Shown one piece after another: positions 38,018 through 45,824 of a stretch of DNA of 64,000 bases. This DNA is from Dehalobacter restrictus DSM 9455 (GTDB lineage Bacteria > Bacillota > Desulfitobacteriia > Desulfitobacteriales > Syntrophobotulaceae): the NCBI RefSeq assembly GCF_000512895.1, contig NZ_CP007033.1, positions 1,022,001 to 1,086,000 of the forward strand, given 5' to 3'. Within the stretch, counting starts at the first letter, position 1; each line of letters begins with the position of its first letter. Both the position numbers and the translations under genes were made by a program. Below the pieces are notes generated by a model. It was not told the origin of the DNA and made no database searches. It saw only the letters and a list, made by a program, of their open reading frames with translations.

Positions 38018-39406
38018 ATGGCAATGTTTGAGGGTCTAAGCGAAAAACTCCAGGCTACTTTCAAAAGACTTAGAGGAAAAGGTAAATTAACCGAAGCCGA
38101 TGTTACAGAGGCCCTGCGTGAAGTTAGAATTGCGCTGCTTGAAGCAGATGTCAATTTCAAGGTCGTCAAAGAACTGATTGCCCGGATCAAGGAGAGGTCT
38201 GTAGGTCAGGAAGTACTGGAATCCCTTACTCCCGGGCAGCATGTGATAAAAATTGTCCACGAAGAGATTATCCGTCTGATGGGTGGGAGTGAAAGCAAAA
38301 TATCGATTTCCTCCAAACCGCCGACAATTATTATGCTGGTGGGACTGCAGGGAGCCGGAAAAACCACTCATGGCGCCAAGCTCGCCAATATGCTGAAAAA
38401 GCAGGGGAAGCACCCGCTGCTGGTCGCCTGTGACATCTATCGTCCTGCTGCAATTAAACAGCTGGAAGTTTTGGGGGAACAGATCAAGGTTCCGGTTTTT
38501 TCTCTTGGTCAGGAAAATCCCGTGAAGATCGCTTCCGAGAGTCTGGTATTCTCGAGAAAAAATGGCAATGATGTCGTCATCATCGATACTGCCGGACGGC
38601 TGCATATTAATGAAGAACTCATGGATGAACTGTCCAGAATCAAAGGAAATGTCAAACCGCATGAAATATTGTTGGTTGTCGACGCCATGACAGGTCAGGA
38701 TGCAGTGAATGCTGCCGATGCTTTCCACCAACAGCTCGGACTTGACGGTGTCATTCTTTCCAAGCTTGACGGGGATACCCGCGGCGGTGCGGCGCTTTCC
38801 GTCAAAGCAGTGACCGGCTGCCCGATCAAATTTGCCGGAACCGGTGAAAAAATGGATGCTTTGGAAGTTTTTCACCCTGACCGGATCGCGTCCAGGATTT
38901 TAGGTATGGGCGATGTGCTTACTCTGATCGAGAGAGCCCAGCAGAATGTCGACGAGAAAAAAGCCAGGGAACTGGAAGAGAAAATCCGTAAACAAGAGCT
39001 TACGCTGGATGACTATCTTGATCAGATCAAACAGCTGCGCTCGATGGGTCCTTTGTCGTCTGTGCTGGAAATGCTGCCTGGAATCGGCAAGCAGCTGAAA
39101 GGCGTCGAGATCGATGAGAAAGAGTTCTACAAGGCGGAAGCCATCATCTGTTCGATGACAGCGGATGAAAGAAGAAAACCGATCCTGATCAAGGACTCCC
39201 GTAAAAAAAGGATAGCGAAAGGGAGCGGAACAACGGTTGTCGATGTTGGAAGGCTTCTTAAGCAATATGAACAAACCAAGAAAATGATGAAACAGCTTTC
39301 CGGACTCCCAGGGATGGGAGGAGCCGTCAAAGGCGGTACGAAGAAAGGGAAAAAAGGGAAAAAACAGGGCAAGAAATCTTTCCCAAAATTCCCTTTCCAG
39401 ATATAG
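38018..39406 (+). CDS. ffh: Signal recognition particle protein Ffh
   Basis: A 462-residue SRP54 GTPase. The N domain is followed by the G domain with [15 protein letters not shown] (P-loop, with His where Thr or Ala is common), [24 protein letters not shown] and [14 protein letters not shown], then a methionine-rich M domain containing [10 protein letters not shown] for RNA binding. The C-terminus is lysine/glycine-rich ([12 protein letters not shown]). It is cotranscribed with ylxM; rpsP follows. Confidence 0.96.
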
Positions 39407-39523
39407 TGCCGATTTAAACACAATTTAAACAATCAGATATTCCTTTTAAATCATTGCGGACTCCCAAATATCATTGATGTTGTTGAATATATGGGTTTAG
39501 AGTTTGTTGGAGGAGGTGAAATT

Positions 39524-39787
39524 ATGGCAACAACGATTCGTTTGCGCCGCATGGGTGCAAAGAAAAATCCTTTCTACCGTCTTGTAGTATGCGACTCAGC
39601 ATCCCGCCGTGATGGCAGGGCAATTGAGGAAATTGGTTATTATGATCCTACCAAAAATCCTCATGAAATCAAGATAGATGAGATCAAAGCGCTGGAATGG
39701 CTGACTCAGGGAGCTCAACCTTCGGATACCGCAAAATCTCTGCTCAGTCAGGCCGGAATTATGGAGAAATTTCATAAATCCAAGTAA
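39524..39787 (+). CDS. rpsP: 30S ribosomal protein S16
   Basis: An 87-residue S16 protein ([45 protein letters not shown]). The start is the ATG at 39524, behind AGGAGGTGA; the longer frame to 39491 runs through that site. It heads the standard rpsP-khpA-rimM-trmD order. Confidence 0.97.
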
Positions 39788-39804
39788 GCATGGAGGTGAC
39801 TCCT

Positions 39805-40035
39805 GTGAAAGAAGTCGTAGAGGTACTAGCTAAGGCATTGGTGGATCATCCTGAAGAAGTTATTGTGGTTCAGAATGCTACAGAGAGAACTGTGCACCTT
39901 CAATTGACAGTTGCTCAGGAAGATATGGGCAAAGTGATCGGTAAACAGGGTAAGATCGCTAACGCTATCCGGACAATTGTCAAGGCTGCGGCCGTGAAAG
40001 ACGGACGCAGGGTTATTGTTGATATTGACCAGTAA
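39805..40035 (+). CDS. khpA: KH-domain RNA-binding protein KhpA (YlqC)
   Basis: A 76-residue single-KH protein, with the GKVIGKQGKIANAI loop carrying GxxG. In Gram-positives KhpA pairs with KhpB/Jag and binds many RNAs. The GTG at 39805, five bases behind GGAGGTGA, is the start; an ATG at 39790 lies before the site. A terminator follows. Confidence 0.92.
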   Translation: MKEVVEVLAKALVDHPEEVIVVQNATERTVHLQLTVAQEDMGKVIGKQGKIANAIRTIVKAAAVKDGRRVIVDIDQ

Positions 40036-40041
40036 GGTTGG

Positions 40042-40061
40042 AAAGGGCTCAGGCCCTTTTT
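40042..40061 (+). terminator. Hairpin terminator between khpA and rimM
   Basis: AAAGGGC and GCCCTTT around a TCAG loop, ending in TTTTT. The next 130 bases before rimM contain no clear promoter or riboswitch that I can name. Confidence 0.75.
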
Positions 40062-40192
40062 GACTTTACTGGTTTAGAAAAACGCTAAGTGCTTTCTGAA
40101 CCATCTAAGGGCAGCTAAAACTGACGACGGCCAAGTTTTCTTTAAATGGGATGATGGATCGCGGAACTCTATAAAGGAAAGGGCGTAACGCC

Positions 40193-40702
40193 TTGGAAAG
40201 TGTATTAATTGGAGAGGTCCTAAAACCGCAGGGTGTCAAAGGAGAAATCAAGGTATATCCGATTACGGATAATACGGAGCGGTTCAGGGATCTGAAAGAA
40301 ATTTATCTGTCTGATGGAAGGACTGAAAAAAAATTTCATGTCCAGGGGGTAAGGATTGATCCGAAAGGTATCGTGTTCTTGACTTTGGAAGGCATTGCTA
40401 CTAGGGAGGATGCTGAAAAGATCCGTGGATTTGAGGTCAGACTAGACCGATCGGAGATTCCTCCGCTGCAAGACCGCTGGTATTACTTTGAGCTTGAGGG
40501 AATGCAGGTTTACGAGAATGATATTCTGCTGGGGACTTTGATAAGAGTTCAGGAAACTGGTTCGAACGATATCTATATTGTCCGCGGCGAAAAAACCGAA
40601 TTCTGTGTTCCGGCTTTAAAAACCGTTGTCAAAAAGGTGGATGTCCCGGCGAAAAGAATGGATGTCATTTTGCCTCCGGGGTTACTCGATGATGAGTCTT
40701 AG
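40193..40702 (+). CDS. rimM: 16S rRNA processing protein RimM
   Basis: A 169-residue assembly factor for the 30S head that binds S19. The N-terminal RimM barrel has LIGEVLKPQGVKGEIKVYP; the C-terminal PRC barrel has YYFELEGMQV and IYIVRG. The start is a TTG at 40193 with AAAGGG upstream. trmD follows 18 bases after the stop. Confidence 0.94.
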   Translation: MESVLIGEVLKPQGVKGEIKVYPITDNTERFRDLKEIYLSDGRTEKKFHVQGVRIDPKGIVFLTLEGIATREDAEKIRGFEVRLDRSEIPPLQDRWYYFELEGMQVYENDILLGTLIRVQETGSNDIYIVRGEKTEFCVPALKTVVKKVDVPAKRMDVILPPGLLDDES

Positions 40703-40720
40703 CATAAAGAGAGGCTGCGT

Positions 40721-41524
40721 ATGAAGTTTACGGTACTGACGATTTTTCCGGAAATGTTTGCGCCATTAAAAGAAAGCATTCTGAAAAGGGCTCAGGAAGC
40801 GGGCCTGCTTGAGATAGCGCTTGTTAATTTCCGCGATTATGCCGAGAGCAAACATAAAAATGTGGATGATATCCCGTATGGCGGGGGCTCGGGAATGGTT
40901 CTAAAGCCGGAGCCTCTGTTCAAGGCTGTCCGGAATTTGCCGGAGCCTGCAGGAAGCCGCCGAATTATTTTGCTCTCGCCTCAGGGAAAAAAATTTGAGC
41001 AGCGGGAAGCTTTGAGACTGGCTGGATATGATGAGTTAGTTCTTTTGTGCGGCCATTATGAAGGATTTGACGAGAGAATACGCGTCCTGGTCGATGAGGA
41101 GATGTCCATCGGAGATTATGTTTTAACGGGAGGAGAACTTGCTGCGATGGTGATGATTGATTCGGTGGCAAGGCTCTTGCCGGGCGTTCTCGGGAACAGT
41201 GTTTCTCAGGAGGATGATTCCCACAGTCAGGGTCTGCTCGAGTATCCTCAGTATACACGTCCTCCCGACTTTGAAGGAATGCAGGTGCCCGAGGTTCTGC
41301 TTTCAGGACATCACGCCAATATTGAGCGCTGGCGTAGAAAAGAGTCTCTGAGAAGGACTCTCCTGAAAAGAAGTGATTTAATCCCGCAGATAGAGTTTCA
41401 GCAAACAGATTATCCGCTTTTAGAGGAACTTACGCTCGATCATCCGGAGATTAAGATTTATCGCGAGAAATGGGAGCATTTAAAGCCTGCTCTGAAGCGG
41501 AGACAACGAATTAAGAGCGAGTAG
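40721..41524 (+). CDS. trmD: tRNA (guanine37-N1)-methyltransferase TrmD
   Basis: A 267-residue SPOUT knot enzyme modifying G37 next to the anticodon. Motifs: LTIFPEMF, NFRDYAESKHKNVDDIPYG, LLCGHYEGFDERI and the knot SIGDYVLTGGELAAMVMID. A typical C-terminal helical part follows. ATG start behind GAGAGG. It ends the rpsP group. Confidence 0.96.
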   Translation: MKFTVLTIFPEMFAPLKESILKRAQEAGLLEIALVNFRDYAESKHKNVDDIPYGGGSGMVLKPEPLFKAVRNLPEPAGSRRIILLSPQGKKFEQREALRLAGYDELVLLCGHYEGFDERIRVLVDEEMSIGDYVLTGGELAAMVMIDSVARLLPGVLGNSVSQEDDSHSQGLLEYPQYTRPPDFEGMQVPEVLLSGHHANIERWRRKESLRRTLLKRSDLIPQIEFQQTDYPLLEELTLDHPEIKIYREKWEHLKPALKRRQRIKSE

Positions 41525-41540
41525 TATAAAGACCTATTGT

Positions 41541-41605
41541 GGCAGGTCTGCTTGCCAAAACTACCGCTATCGGCTATTGTGCCCTCCGTGGCGTTTCTAG
41601 TGCCG
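41541..41605 (-). repeat. Dispersed palindromic intergenic repeat, partial copy D1
   Basis: Minus-strand reading gives AAACGCC-ACGGAG-GGCACAA, GCCGATAGCGG and GCAGACCTGCC, i.e. the 3' half of the family. The apical stem is no longer fully paired, so this copy is decayed. Confidence 0.6.
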
Positions 41606-41639
41606 TCTTACGAAGTGAATGCTTATGCGTCTGAAGAAA

Positions 41640-41797
41640 GATCTGCATTCTGGCATGCAGATCTGCGTAAATAATCCTACGATCAGTCTGGGGGCCACAG
41701 TTCCGCTGTGAGCGGAGCAGGATTGCGTAGCGCGGCCTTTTGTGTCAAGGATGACACAACGGCCGAAAAGCGGTATTGTGACCCACAGACTAACCCT
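41640..41797 (+). repeat. Dispersed palindromic intergenic repeat, copy D2
   Basis: It is nearly identical to copy C, including the side hairpin GATCTGCAT-TCTGGC-ATGCAGATC. The apical hairpin here is TTGTGTC-AAGGAT-GACACAA: both sides changed together relative to copy C (TTGTGCC/GGCACAA). With D1 it fills the gap between trmD and the methyltransferase gene. Confidence 0.82.
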
Positions 41798-41829
41798 AGA
41801 TTACTATTTAATAAGATCTGGAGGAAATA

Positions 41830-42390
41830 ATGGGAGAACTATATGTAGCCCTTATTCACGCACCTGTCTACAACAAAAATATGGAGCAGATCGCAACGTC
41901 GATAACCAACCTTGACTTGCACGATATTGCCCGAAGCTCAACTACTTATGGAGTGAATACCTATTATGTTGTCCATCCCGGTCCGGCTCAGCAGGATCTA
42001 GCCCGGCGGATCATGGGCTTTTGGCGGGAAGGGTATGGCGCTGAATATAATCCCAATAGATATGAAGCTTTTGAGAAAGTGAAGCTTGCCTCGACGCTGG
42101 AAGAAGCTGTCCAGGAAATCAAAATCAAGAATCCCGGCAAGAAATTATTCACGGTTGCAACGGATGCGAGACTGTACCGGAATACGATTGAATATTCCGA
42201 CCTGCGCCGGAAGCTCGAGGAAACTGATGAGGACTTTCTGCTGCTTTTCGGAACAGGTTGGGGCATCATAAAGGAAGAAATGGAAAAAGCAGATTATATT
42301 CTGAAGCCGGTTTACGGTTTCGGAGACTATAATCATCTGTCTGTCCGTTCAGCTGCGGCAATTATTTTGGACAGGCTCAGAGGCCATTAA
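41830..42390 (+). CDS. SPOUT-type RNA methyltransferase (TM1570 family)
   Basis: A 186-residue protein of the Methyltrn_RNA_4 group, a SAM-dependent RNA methyltransferase of unproven target commonly encoded next to trmD. It has LIHAPVYNKN at the start, TYGVNTYYVVHP, a LLLFGTGWG loop that forms part of the knot, and the C-terminal YNHLSVRSAAAIILDRL. GGAGG lies before the ATG. Target RNA unknown. Confidence 0.85.
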   Translation: MGELYVALIHAPVYNKNMEQIATSITNLDLHDIARSSTTYGVNTYYVVHPGPAQQDLARRIMGFWREGYGAEYNPNRYEAFEKVKLASTLEEAVQEIKIKNPGKKLFTVATDARLYRNTIEYSDLRRKLEETDEDFLLLFGTGWGIIKEEMEKADYILKPVYGFGDYNHLSVRSAAAIILDRLRGH

Positions 42391-42465
42391 TTGGTTATTT
42401 TTTGAATTGACAAGGCACAAGAATAAAGTGTTTTTTTTCGGAGAAAATAGTGCTGGGGTGAGCTT

Positions 42466-43611
42466 ATGAAAAACACTTTAATTCTGGGTGGGGGAATCGG
42501 CGGTATTGTTGCCTCCAATATTCTTAAAAATGTGGCGGGGGATTCCATGCAGGTAACGGTCGTGGACCGGGAACTCAATCATCACTTTGCAGCCTCTTAT
42601 CCACTCCTTATGATCGGTCAGCGAAAACCAGCGGATATAACAAGGAAGTTAACCAATTTAAAAAAGAAGAATATCCATGTTTTGCATCAGGAAGTACAAA
42701 AAATTGATTTAACCGGACATCAGGTCTCAACAAATCAGGGAGTCTTGCCTTTTGACTATTTGATTATTTCTTTGGGAGTGGAGTATCACACGGAGACCGT
42801 ACCCGGATTCACAGAATATGCTTTAAATGCTTATGATTTTGATGGGGTAAGAAAGATAAATCAGCAATTAAACAATTTCTCCTCCGGACGAATTGTTTTT
42901 TTTATATCCAGCTTGCCATACAAATGTCCATCTGCTCCTTATGAAATAATGTTTCTTTTGGACCAGTTTTTTCGGAAAAGGGGAATTCAAAATAAAATTG
43001 AGCTTACCTTGGTGACGCCAGATTACTCCCCGGAGCCATTAGCCAAGCCCAAGGTTGGGCAAAGTGTAAGGAAAATGCTTGCTGAAAAAGGGATAAAATT
43101 GATCACGGAAGCGAAAGTGCTCAGGATTGAGGAAAAAGCTTTGATCCTGGATCATGACACGAAAATTGCTGCGGATCTTTTGTTAGGTATTGCGCCTCAC
43201 TGGACCCCGGAGGTATTACGAAAGTCAAATTTGGTGGATAGCAGCGGATTTGTTCAAGTAGACCTTCACACTTTGGAAACAAATTACCCGACAATCTATG
43301 CCATTGGTGATGCTGCAGCGGTAAAGCTTCCGGTAATGGGGGCCTACGCACCGAAAGCCGGTGCGTTTGCGCATTACCAGGCGGATGTTGTGGCAAGAAA
43401 TATCTATCTTCTGTCCAGGGGGGCAAAGCCGGAATATACCTATAAAGGAAAGGGTACCTGAATCATGAATACCGGGTTCGGTCGGGCCCGATATTCATCG
43501 GTTCAGTATTATAAAAAACCAAGCCCATCGATCTCTCTATGGAAGCCAACGCGGACAGCCTATTTGGCAAAACTTGGATTTGAAAAATACTGGTTTGGCC
43601 GTTTTATATAA
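42466..43611 (+). CDS. SQR-like FAD oxidoreductase with in-frame UGA, candidate selenoprotein
   Basis: Read conventionally the frame stops at 43461 (331 residues); read through the UGA at 43459-43461 it continues 49 codons to TAA at 43609, giving 381 residues. The sequence has the FAD-binding ILGGGIGG, the redox Cys154 in YKCPSAPYE, and YAIGDAAAV near the C-terminus. SQR and flavocytochrome c sulfide dehydrogenases carry a second redox Cys about 175-200 residues later, after a GKG-type turn; here the UGA (position 332) stands at that place, in GKGT-UGA-IMNTGFGRA. The extension keeps family-like features (GFGRA, FEKYWF). A SECIS-like hairpin follows the UGA. The alternative is a nonsense mutation. 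The start ATG follows GGGGTGAG. Confidence 0.7.
43459..43498 (+). promoter_or_regulatory. Candidate bacterial SECIS element
   Basis: Directly after the UGA: ATGAATA (43465-43471) pairs with TATTCAT (43492-43498), then after a C/A mismatch CGGG pairs with CCCG, and UUC with GGG (two wobbles), closing on the loop GGUC (43480-43483). The loop begins 18 nt after the UGA. The E. coli fdhF SECIS, as I know it, also has a GGUC loop 18 nt after its UGA. A distinct bulged U as in fdhF is not obvious. Confidence 0.65.
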
Positions 43612-43697
43612 TCCTGGAATCAGAAAGATCAGAAAAACAGAAATGAAAAGCAGATATGAAGGACAAGCAAAAATTGACGCTGTATCGAAAACTTGAA

Positions 43698-43739
43698 GAA
43701 ATTAACTAGAGGAAATTAACTAGAGGAAATTAACTAGAG
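43698..43739 (+). repeat. Three tandem 14-mers upstream of rplS
   Basis: GAAATTAACTAGAG is repeated three times without change. It is non-coding and lies 25 bases before the rplS promoter. Confidence 0.85.
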
Positions 43740-43763
43740 ATTTAGTAAAAAAGATATAGCATA

Positions 43764-43792
43764 TTGCGCATTTTTGGTGTGTGTGGTAATAT
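43764..43792 (+). promoter_or_regulatory. Sigma-A promoter of rplS
   Basis: TTGCGC at 43764-43769 and TAATAT at 43787-43792, 17-base spacer, about 80 bases before the rplS start. Confidence 0.6.
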
Positions 43793-43799
43793 GATACAG

Positions 43800-43873
43800 T
43801 GTAAAAAACGGATGGTCCTCTGGCTTGATGTAAGAAGTTAAGAACATCTAGGCAAGGAAGGGGGTAATTTATT
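43800..43873 (+). promoter_or_regulatory. rplS leader, possible L19 autoregulatory RNA
   Basis: The leader contains a stem GATGT/ACATC flanked by GCTT and TAGGC around a 12-base loop, followed by the AAGGAAGGGGG ribosome site. Firmicutes rplS leaders often carry a small L19-binding structure; this match is by position and shape only. Confidence 0.35.
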
Positions 43874-44215
43874 ATGGATTATATTCGTATGATTGAAGAG
43901 CAGCAGCTTAAAGATAATATTCCTTCATTCCGTCCTGGAGATACAGTCAAAGTACATGTACGTATTATCGAGGGTACTCGTGAGCGTATTCAGGTCTTTG
44001 AAGGGCTTGTGATTAAAAGGAAGGGCGATGGCTTAAGGGAGACTTTCACCGTGCGCCGTGTTTCCAACGGAGTAGGTGTAGAAAGAACATTCCCCCTTCA
44101 TTCTCCGCGTATTGACAAGATTGAAGTTGTACGTAAAGGTATTGTCCGCAGAGCGAAACTTTACTATCTGCGTGACCGTTACGGCAAATCGGCCAGAATC
44201 AGAGAACGCCGCTAA
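43874..44215 (+). CDS. rplS: 50S ribosomal protein L19
   Basis: A 113-residue protein with [48 protein letters not shown] and the C-terminal [14 protein letters not shown]. The ATG follows AAGGAAGGGGG. It carries its own promoter, and a terminator lies before rbgA. Confidence 0.97.
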
Positions 44216-44230
44216 TAACAGAGAAGATGG

Positions 44231-44263
44231 AAAAGAGCTGGAGAAATTCAGCTCTTTTGTTTT
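44231..44263 (+). terminator. Terminator between rplS and rbgA
   Basis: AAAAGAGCTG and CAGCTCTTTT pair around an eight-base loop, followed by GTTTT. Some read-through into rbgA is likely, as no new promoter is seen in the 12 bases after it. Confidence 0.75.
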
Positions 44264-44275
44264 CTATGGAGGATT

Positions 44276-45097
44276 ATGAACATTCAATGGTATCCTGGTC
44301 ATATGACCAGAGCGAAAAGAAAGCTCGAAGAACAACTGGCTTGGGTTGATATTGTCATGGAACTGGGAGACGCTCGTTTGCCACTGAGCAGCAGGAATCC
44401 TCTGCTGAAGCAGCTGCTTGGGAACAAGCTCCGCTTGCTTTTGCTCAACAAATCGGACCTTGCTGACAAAAAGAGGATTGACCAGTGGCTTGTGAAACTT
44501 GGCAAGGAAGGACCTGTTTTAGCGATTAGTTCCATGACCAATGTTGGCGTCAAAAAAATTGTCCCGCTGCTCGAGGAACTGATGACGGATAAAAGAGAAC
44601 GGCTGGCCGCCAGGGGAGTGCGGGGAAGACCTATTCGCGTCATGGTTGTTGGTATACCCAATATTGGCAAGTCTACGCTGATTAATCAGCTGACCGGCGG
44701 TTCACAAGCCAAGACGGGCAACAAACCAGGTGTTACGCGCGGCAACCAGTGGATCAGGATACATGATAAAGTCGAGCTGCTTGATACTCCGGGTATGCTT
44801 TGGCCCAAATTTGATGATCCTGAAGTAGGCAGGAAACTCGCTGTGACCGGTGCGGTAAGAGATGAAGTGTTCGATCAGGAAGAACTTGCTCAGTGGCTGC
44901 TCGCCTGGCTTAAACAGAATTATCCTCTGGAACTGCAAAGCTTTTACAAACTTGGGGAAAACGAGACCGATCTTGAAGGGATTGGCCGCAGAAGGGGCTG
45001 TCTAGTCAGCGGTGGCAGAATTGATACCTTCAAAGCCGCCCAGATCTTTCTTCGTGAATTCCGCAGCGGTAAGATTGCCAAAGTGACTATGGACTAA
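44276..45097 (+). CDS. rbgA: Ribosome biogenesis GTPase RbgA (YlqF)
   Basis: A 273-residue circularly permuted GTPase needed for late 50S assembly in Bacillus. Order of motifs: IQWYPGHMTRAKR, NKSDL (G4), GIPNIGKSTLINQL (P-loop), KPGVTRG (G2) and DTPGMLWPK (G3). A GGAGG lies just before the ATG. It is followed by rnhB, the usual order. Confidence 0.95.
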   Translation: MNIQWYPGHMTRAKRKLEEQLAWVDIVMELGDARLPLSSRNPLLKQLLGNKLRLLLLNKSDLADKKRIDQWLVKLGKEGPVLAISSMTNVGVKKIVPLLEELMTDKRERLAARGVRGRPIRVMVVGIPNIGKSTLINQLTGGSQAKTGNKPGVTRGNQWIRIHDKVELLDTPGMLWPKFDDPEVGRKLAVTGAVRDEVFDQEELAQWLLAWLKQNYPLELQSFYKLGENETDLEGIGRRRGCLVSGGRIDTFKAAQIFLREFRSGKIAKVTMD

Positions 45098-45176
45098 AAA
45101 TTTGACGCTTCTATACATTACGGAGACTGGTCTCTAGAGTATGTGCCACATTTTATTCAGCTGGGGAGATGAAGGA

Positions 45177-45824
45177 ATGGATGAAATCGAAAGGATAGGG
45201 AAACTCCTGGAGATAGAAAAAGGTTTGTTTGCTGAAGGATATTCACGGATTGCCGGTATAGATGAAGCAGGAAGAGGTCCGCTTGCCGGTCCTGTCATTG
45301 CCGCTGCTTGTATCTTGCCAAGGGAGTTTGAGCTTCCCGGCCTGAATGACTCGAAGAAATTATCGGAAAAGAAAAGAAGGAACTTAGCTGAAGAAATCAA
45401 AAAGCAGGCTGTTGCTTTTGCACTGGGAAGTGCGACGCCCGGCGAAATTGACCTGTTAAACATATTAAGGGCCACAAAGCTGGCGATGATAAGGGCCCTG
45501 GAAAACCTGAAAATCAACCCTGATTACGTCATTATTGACGGCAGGGACATGCTGAATATGGATACGGCTCAGAAAGCCATTATTGGTGGAGACGCTCTTA
45601 GTGCGAGTATTGCCGCAGCTTCAATTCTGGCCAAGGTTACCAGGGATGCGCTGATGGATGAGATGCATCAGATTTATCCGGAATATCATTTTGATCAACA
45701 CAAGGGTTATGGAACCAAGCTGCACATGGAGGTAATAAACCGCTTTGGTCCTTGTCCAATCCACAGGCAGAGTTTCTCGCCGATCAAAGAGATAATCGCC
45801 GGGACACAGTATAAACTCGGGTAA
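45177..45824 (+). CDS. rnhB: Ribonuclease HII
   Basis: A 215-residue enzyme removing ribonucleotides from DNA. Catalytic residues: GIDEAGRGPLAGPV (Asp, Glu), VIIDGRDML (Asp) and SASIAAASILAKVTRD (Asp). The ATG at 45177 has GGGGAG eight bases upstream; an earlier in-frame ATG at 45141 lacks a ribosome site. A terminator lies about 90 bases after the stop. Confidence 0.95.
   Translation: MDEIERIGKLLEIEKGLFAEGYSRIAGIDEAGRGPLAGPVIAAACILPREFELPGLNDSKKLSEKKRRNLAEEIKKQAVAFALGSATPGEIDLLNILRATKLAMIRALENLKINPDYVIIDGRDMLNMDTAQKAIIGGDALSASIAAASILAKVTRDALMDEMHQIYPEYHFDQHKGYGTKLHMEVINRFGPCPIHRQSFSPIKEIIAGTQYKLG

Follow-up and report, generated by a model that had tools for sequence, protein, structure and literature searches.

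The reading frame at positions 42466-43611 (+ strand) of the window, the 64,000-nt stretch analyzed here (bases 1,022,001-1,086,000 of the complete 2,943,336-bp Dehalobacter restrictus DSM 9455 genome), very probably encodes a putatively membrane-associated sulfide:quinone oxidoreductase (SQR)-type FAD protein in which UGA332 is decoded as selenocysteine (Sec) by means of SelB and a hairpin, the redox pair consists of Sec332 and Cys154, and electrons pass to menaquinone. A selenocysteine-containing SQR had been proposed for this frame in an earlier note, and its coordinates were reproduced. The frame begins with ATG at 42466, 4 nt downstream of a Shine-Dalgarno-like GGGGTGA (42455-42461, + strand) that is similar in orthologues, meets its sole in-frame TGA at 43459-43461, and then stays open for 49 codons to a TAA stop at 43609-43611, giving 381 codons with TGA read as Sec.

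The first redox cysteine is encoded by codon 154 (TGT, 42925-42927, + strand) within the motif YKCPSAPYE, and codon 332 (TGA, 43459-43461, + strand) lies 178 residues beyond it. Residues 154 and 332 align with both redox cysteines of human SQOR in a phmmer alignment, which agrees with the proposal that the TGA stands at the second redox position, and C154 and C/U332 are invariant in two homologue alignments (A1 and A2). Alignment thus identifies Cys154 and the TGA column as the predicted SQR redox pair. The Pfam match of the protein is Pyr_redox_2, and a sequence search of solved structures placed SQRs and flavocytochrome c sulfide dehydrogenase (FCSD) at the top. In the AlphaFold model (pLDDT 91.7) the Sec-bearing strand and the C-terminal helix are ordered; Foldseek returned SQRs as the best matches to this model (E 6e-32, TM to query 0.84-0.90), and VIA-align gave Z scores of 46 over 375 residues for SQR, 43-44 for FCSD and 40 for NDH-2. 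The frame is therefore predicted, on its modeled structure, to encode an SQR-fold flavoprotein.

The coding part 3' of the TGA (43462-43611, + strand) contributes the rest of strand 329-337, strands 340-347 and 355-358, and the C-terminal helix 363-380, a candidate membrane/quinone region that is short and has a modest hydrophobic moment. Across this part pN/pS is 0.07-0.44 and amino acid identity is about as high as upstream, indicating that purifying selection acts on the codons beyond the TGA. The Cys SQRs of human (SQOR), Acidithiobacillus ferrooxidans and Aquifex aeolicus have the same fold and FAD-protein architecture as the D. restrictus protein, which differs from them in having Sec for the second Cys, in being only 21-25% identical in structural alignments, and in a shorter C-terminal region that ends in a single helix. 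The flavoprotein subunit of FCSD also has the same fold, but no cytochrome subunit gene is adjacent to the D. restrictus gene.

In SQR biochemistry, the second redox residue joins a sulfur bridge with the first. In the proposed mechanism, SelB with Sec-tRNA(Sec) would bind the GGUC loop 18 nt past the UGA and direct Sec to codon 332, and Sec332 and Cys154 would form a redox pair at the flavin, with a selenenylsulfide in place of the disulfide. Sulfide, or a related sulfane or persulfide, would attack the selenenylsulfide bridge, the sulfur would be held on the pair, and electrons would travel through FAD to menaquinone; the selenenylsulfide could allow faster attack and release. There is strong support for SelB-dependent, co-translational Sec insertion at UGA332, which is almost certain, while sulfide oxidation into menaquinone is something we infer, as regards both substrate and direction. 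Unlikely, but the most serious of the alternatives, is a Sec protein that in vivo is not an SQR and acts as a polysulfide or persulfide reductase, a selenide-oxidizing enzyme or a different quinone-linked thiol enzyme from the same superfamily. The common fold of SQR, FCSD, CoA-persulfide reductase and NDH-2 would permit this, sulfur genes are absent nearby, and organohalide-respiring anaerobes are not known as sulfide oxidizers. Comparison of gene neighborhoods across relatives found no conserved sulfur-metabolism neighbors, and no partner gene family common to the relatives except for syntenic ribosomal-cluster neighbors in close kin. The protein nevertheless has the two redox positions of SQRs, spaced as they are in that family, its closest structures are SQRs, the C-terminal helix is present, and menaquinone is the sole quinone of D. 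restrictus (PMC4751268).

Downstream of the TGA lies a putative SECIS core (43473-43490, + strand) consisting of a 7-bp stem, CGGGTTC/GGGCCCG (43473-43479/43484-43490), and a GGTC apical loop (43480-43483) 18 nt past the TGA. The earlier note was right about the GGUC loop and its distance; its start of the hairpin three bases after the TGA did not hold, since the extended helix begins directly after the TGA and in the D. restrictus genome reaches outward as far as the TGA itself. In relatives, conservation is limited to the upper 7-bp stem with its loop. The fold of 43459-43506 has an energy of -24.0 kcal/mol (z -4.6), and 0 of 200 shuffles folded as low. When both strands of the window were scanned, one TGA out of 2,529, that of codon 332, was followed at exactly 18 nt by a GGT loop on a stem of at least 7 bp. 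The hairpin (GGUC loop, 7 bp, 18 nt, -17.9 kcal/mol) also agrees with the published bSECIS model, which specifies a loop of 3-9 nt with G in its first two positions, an upper stem of 4-16 bp, a distance of 16-37 nt from the UGA and an MFE of -7.5 or lower (PMC13188914). That model is lax, and because 8.5% of the TGAs in the window also satisfy it, a match alone is weak evidence and conservation decides.

Conservation of the hairpin is pronounced. Among the Sec genes, third-position identity is 0.79 in codons 336-342 versus 0.40 across the other codons; of 296 windows of 7 codons, the top seven all overlap the hairpin. The Sec genes of the clostridial clade have CGGGTTC-GGTC-GAGCCCG or a near variant after the TGA, with the loop at 18 nt; because the stem sequence is nearly invariant, there is little covariation beyond G-U/A-U changes. 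The hairpin of the distant Sec gene L140 is unrelated in sequence, yet has GGT at the same 18 nt from the TGA. An Rfam search of the D. restrictus hairpin returned only PreQ1, at an E value of 6.8, a chance match.

The machinery required for Sec insertion is complete, with selA, selB, selC and selD, the genes the earlier note had named as a check, all found in the genome. SelB scores 379.5 bits, above cut-off, SelA 549 bits and SelD 396 bits, and the tRNA-Sec (65.3 bits) has the anticodon TCA. The selD frame (L101, G000:C1:2259630-2260550) contains one internal TGA of its own, making SelD itself a selenoprotein, and adjoins selA. Two Fdh genes in the genome contain TGA, in agreement with a published account of two Sec-containing formate dehydrogenases in Dehalobacter (PMC4751268), and one of the genes has a GGTC loop equally far from its TGA; the automatic list of TGAs around Fdh and SelD was noisy, and the first Fdh site alone was taken from it. 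SelB was above cut-off in 11 of the 11 genomes with TGA at codon 332, whereas several Cys genomes were without it (Fisher p 0.012, calculated with ten of the TGA genomes and not corrected for relatedness). One Desulfosporosinus MAG (UBA8487, G027) has two tRNA-Sec (L079 and L063) and two SelB (L081 and L099), yet Cys in its SQR; the doubling would reflect either contamination or a second Sec system.

Within the genus, TGA occupies codon 332 in four of the five genomes, and the fifth (G004) has TGC in L021, a gene 93% identical. TGA was found outside the genus in 'Ca. Formimonas warabiya' (L048), Peptococcaceae UBA6129 (L052) and a Clostridia MAG (L053, with a reading frame shifted upstream of the TGA), and in L131, L136 and L139, which come from three further families in the phylum. 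The distant SQR-like gene L140 (G420:C6:14800-16700) also has TGA in column 332 and, from its sequence, represents a predicted second Sec-SQR lineage in the phylum. TGT or TGC is found at this codon in Desulfosporosinus, Tepidanaerobacter, UBA6116 and others. In the alignment that the earlier note had proposed as a check, column 332 is Cys or Sec in nearly all homologues, and close relatives have TGA or TGC/TGT; the few exceptions are divergent, and most lack the first Cys too. In three genes of one genus (L141, L143 and L146), both redox positions have been lost (G and A/V) and the genomes are without SelB; these proteins have likely changed function. No relatives of the SQR-like gene were found in viral contigs.

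The alternation of Sec and Cys at column 332, the conserved hairpin and the complete Sec machinery bear out the view that Sec replaces a catalytic Cys, and the refuting conditions that the earlier note had listed were all checked and none held. Standard table 11 translation yields a 331-aa ORF, and the TGA could in principle be a true stop that leaves a truncated 331-residue flavoprotein, with the open frame behind it as a remnant. We regard this as very improbable: such a product would be missing two strands and the C-terminal helix, the region 3' of the TGA has low pN/pS and undiminished identity, the same TGA and hairpin recur in several families while others have Cys, the Sec machinery is complete in the genome, and conservation as a whole strongly disfavors it. 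That a sequencing error, or a nonsense mutation confined to one strain, turned a Cys codon into TGA is scarcely credible; although L021 of the same genus has TGC and relatives have TGT/TGC, the idea is refuted by TGA at this codon in 11 genomes assembled separately, each of which has SelB, and by a conserved hairpin. The ten further genomes with TGA come from several families, nine with the same hairpin and the L140 genome with a different one. Decoding of TGA without Sec machinery, as Trp or some other residue, has negligible probability, since no support for it was found and it is refuted by the alignment, in which 0 homologues have Trp at column 332 and nearly all have Cys; the tRNA-Sec with anticodon TCA also speaks against it.

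Read as a Sec-SQR, the D. restrictus protein is well supported as a further case and not the first to be predicted. The earlier note had known of no described Sec-SQR, but one is already catalogued: in two species of Desulfosediminicola, a COG1252 oxidoreductase was predicted by deep-Sep to contain Sec (Xiao and Zhang 2025, PMC12013277), and a 2026 review lists this protein as NF049943, with the motif HxxU (PMC13188914). The deep-Sep study states that further TGA-containing homologues exist, which are not named in its text (PMC12013277) and may include some of the present genes. In NCBIfam, NF049943 is the selenoprotein subtype of type III SQR. The D. restrictus protein matches it with an E value of 9.8e-74 and 248.6 bits, below the curated cut-off of 525, and other members of the clostridial clade score 212-261 bits. 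It would work like the NF049943 family, although by this score it is not placed in it. At the position of residue 332, proteins that pass the family cut-off show HANC and the D. restrictus protein shows KGTU, not HxxU; from the HxxU motif and the HANC column, the Desulfosediminicola Sec very likely occupies the same column as residue 332. Identity between the D. restrictus protein and members above the cut-off is about 30%, and the protein falls in a separate, well-supported clade. The described carriers of NF049943 are Desulfosediminicola, a genus of the Desulfobacterota, whereas the carriers found here belong to the Clostridia and to related groups of the same phylum.

The TIGR03385 family has a different, N-terminal catalytic position and a different motif, UGxP, and its match to the D. 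restrictus protein is weak (39 bits). Its Sec-containing CoA-disulfide reductase-like FAD oxidoreductase is likewise a Sec flavoprotein of the Pyr_redox superfamily (PMC13188914). No description of a Sec-SQR in Dehalobacter or other Clostridia was found in the searched literature. The present genes extend a very recent class of predicted selenoproteins to a genus of organohalide respirers and to several more families of its phylum, in a family that offers solved structures and assays. Because standard translation ends at residue 331 and the score is far under the NF049943 cut-off, automatic annotation likely misses the Sec-SQR.

A tree of the 32-row set interleaves Sec and Cys rows with seven changes, a parsimony count that alone leaves the direction of Sec/Cys change unsettled. 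Several Cys genes keep the hairpin, with third-position identities across it that match those of Sec genes: 0.86 in L021, 0.86 in L043 and L044, 0.80 in L050 and 0.67 in L049, and L047, a Cys gene from a genome without SelB, keeps it at 0.71; in the remainder of each of these genes identity is 0.41-0.51. The hairpin has been lost in the Cys genes L023 (0.26), L046 (0.17) and L051 (0.24). Since the hairpin is near-identical among Sec members and kept in several Cys relatives, repeated Sec-to-Cys reversal is suggested, and the simplest reading would be a single Sec origin at the base of the clade followed by such reversals, which left fossil SECIS elements. A reassigned tRNA-Sec reading UGC/UGU in the hairpin-keeping Cys genomes was considered and rejected: all tRNA-Sec found there have the anticodon TCA, so the Cys codons are read as Cys. 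The genes L001 and L021, 93% identical, from one genus and with the hairpin intact in both, provide a natural Sec/Cys experiment on the role of Sec in SQR.

The Sec of the clostridial clade, a lineage separate from the NF049943 family, probably arose independently. More tentatively, and with less than even confidence, we suggest that Sec was gained at least three times at the second redox position of SQR types (in the clostridial clade, in L140 and in the Desulfosediminicola NF049943 family), with several Cys reversals and lingering SECIS elements in the clostridial clade, and that in certain anaerobic environments Sec would thus bring a genuine kinetic or redox benefit, perhaps because the physiological substrate is selenide or a persulfide and not plain sulfide.

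The SQR gene sits in the ffh-rpsP-KH-rimM-trmD ... rplS-rbgA-rnhB cluster of ribosomal and tRNA-modification genes (window 38018-45824), interrupting its usual order. In Dehalobacter, L045 and L054, the gene is at the same chromosomal place, with an RNA methyltransferase-like gene on one side and rplS on the other, and therefore Sec/Cys exchange at this locus took place along vertical descent; L056 has the same downstream side as the Dehalobacter locus. Between the D. restrictus SQR gene and rplS there is a tandem array of a 14-bp unit, AACTAGAGGAAATT, in 3.6 copies (window 43690-43739).
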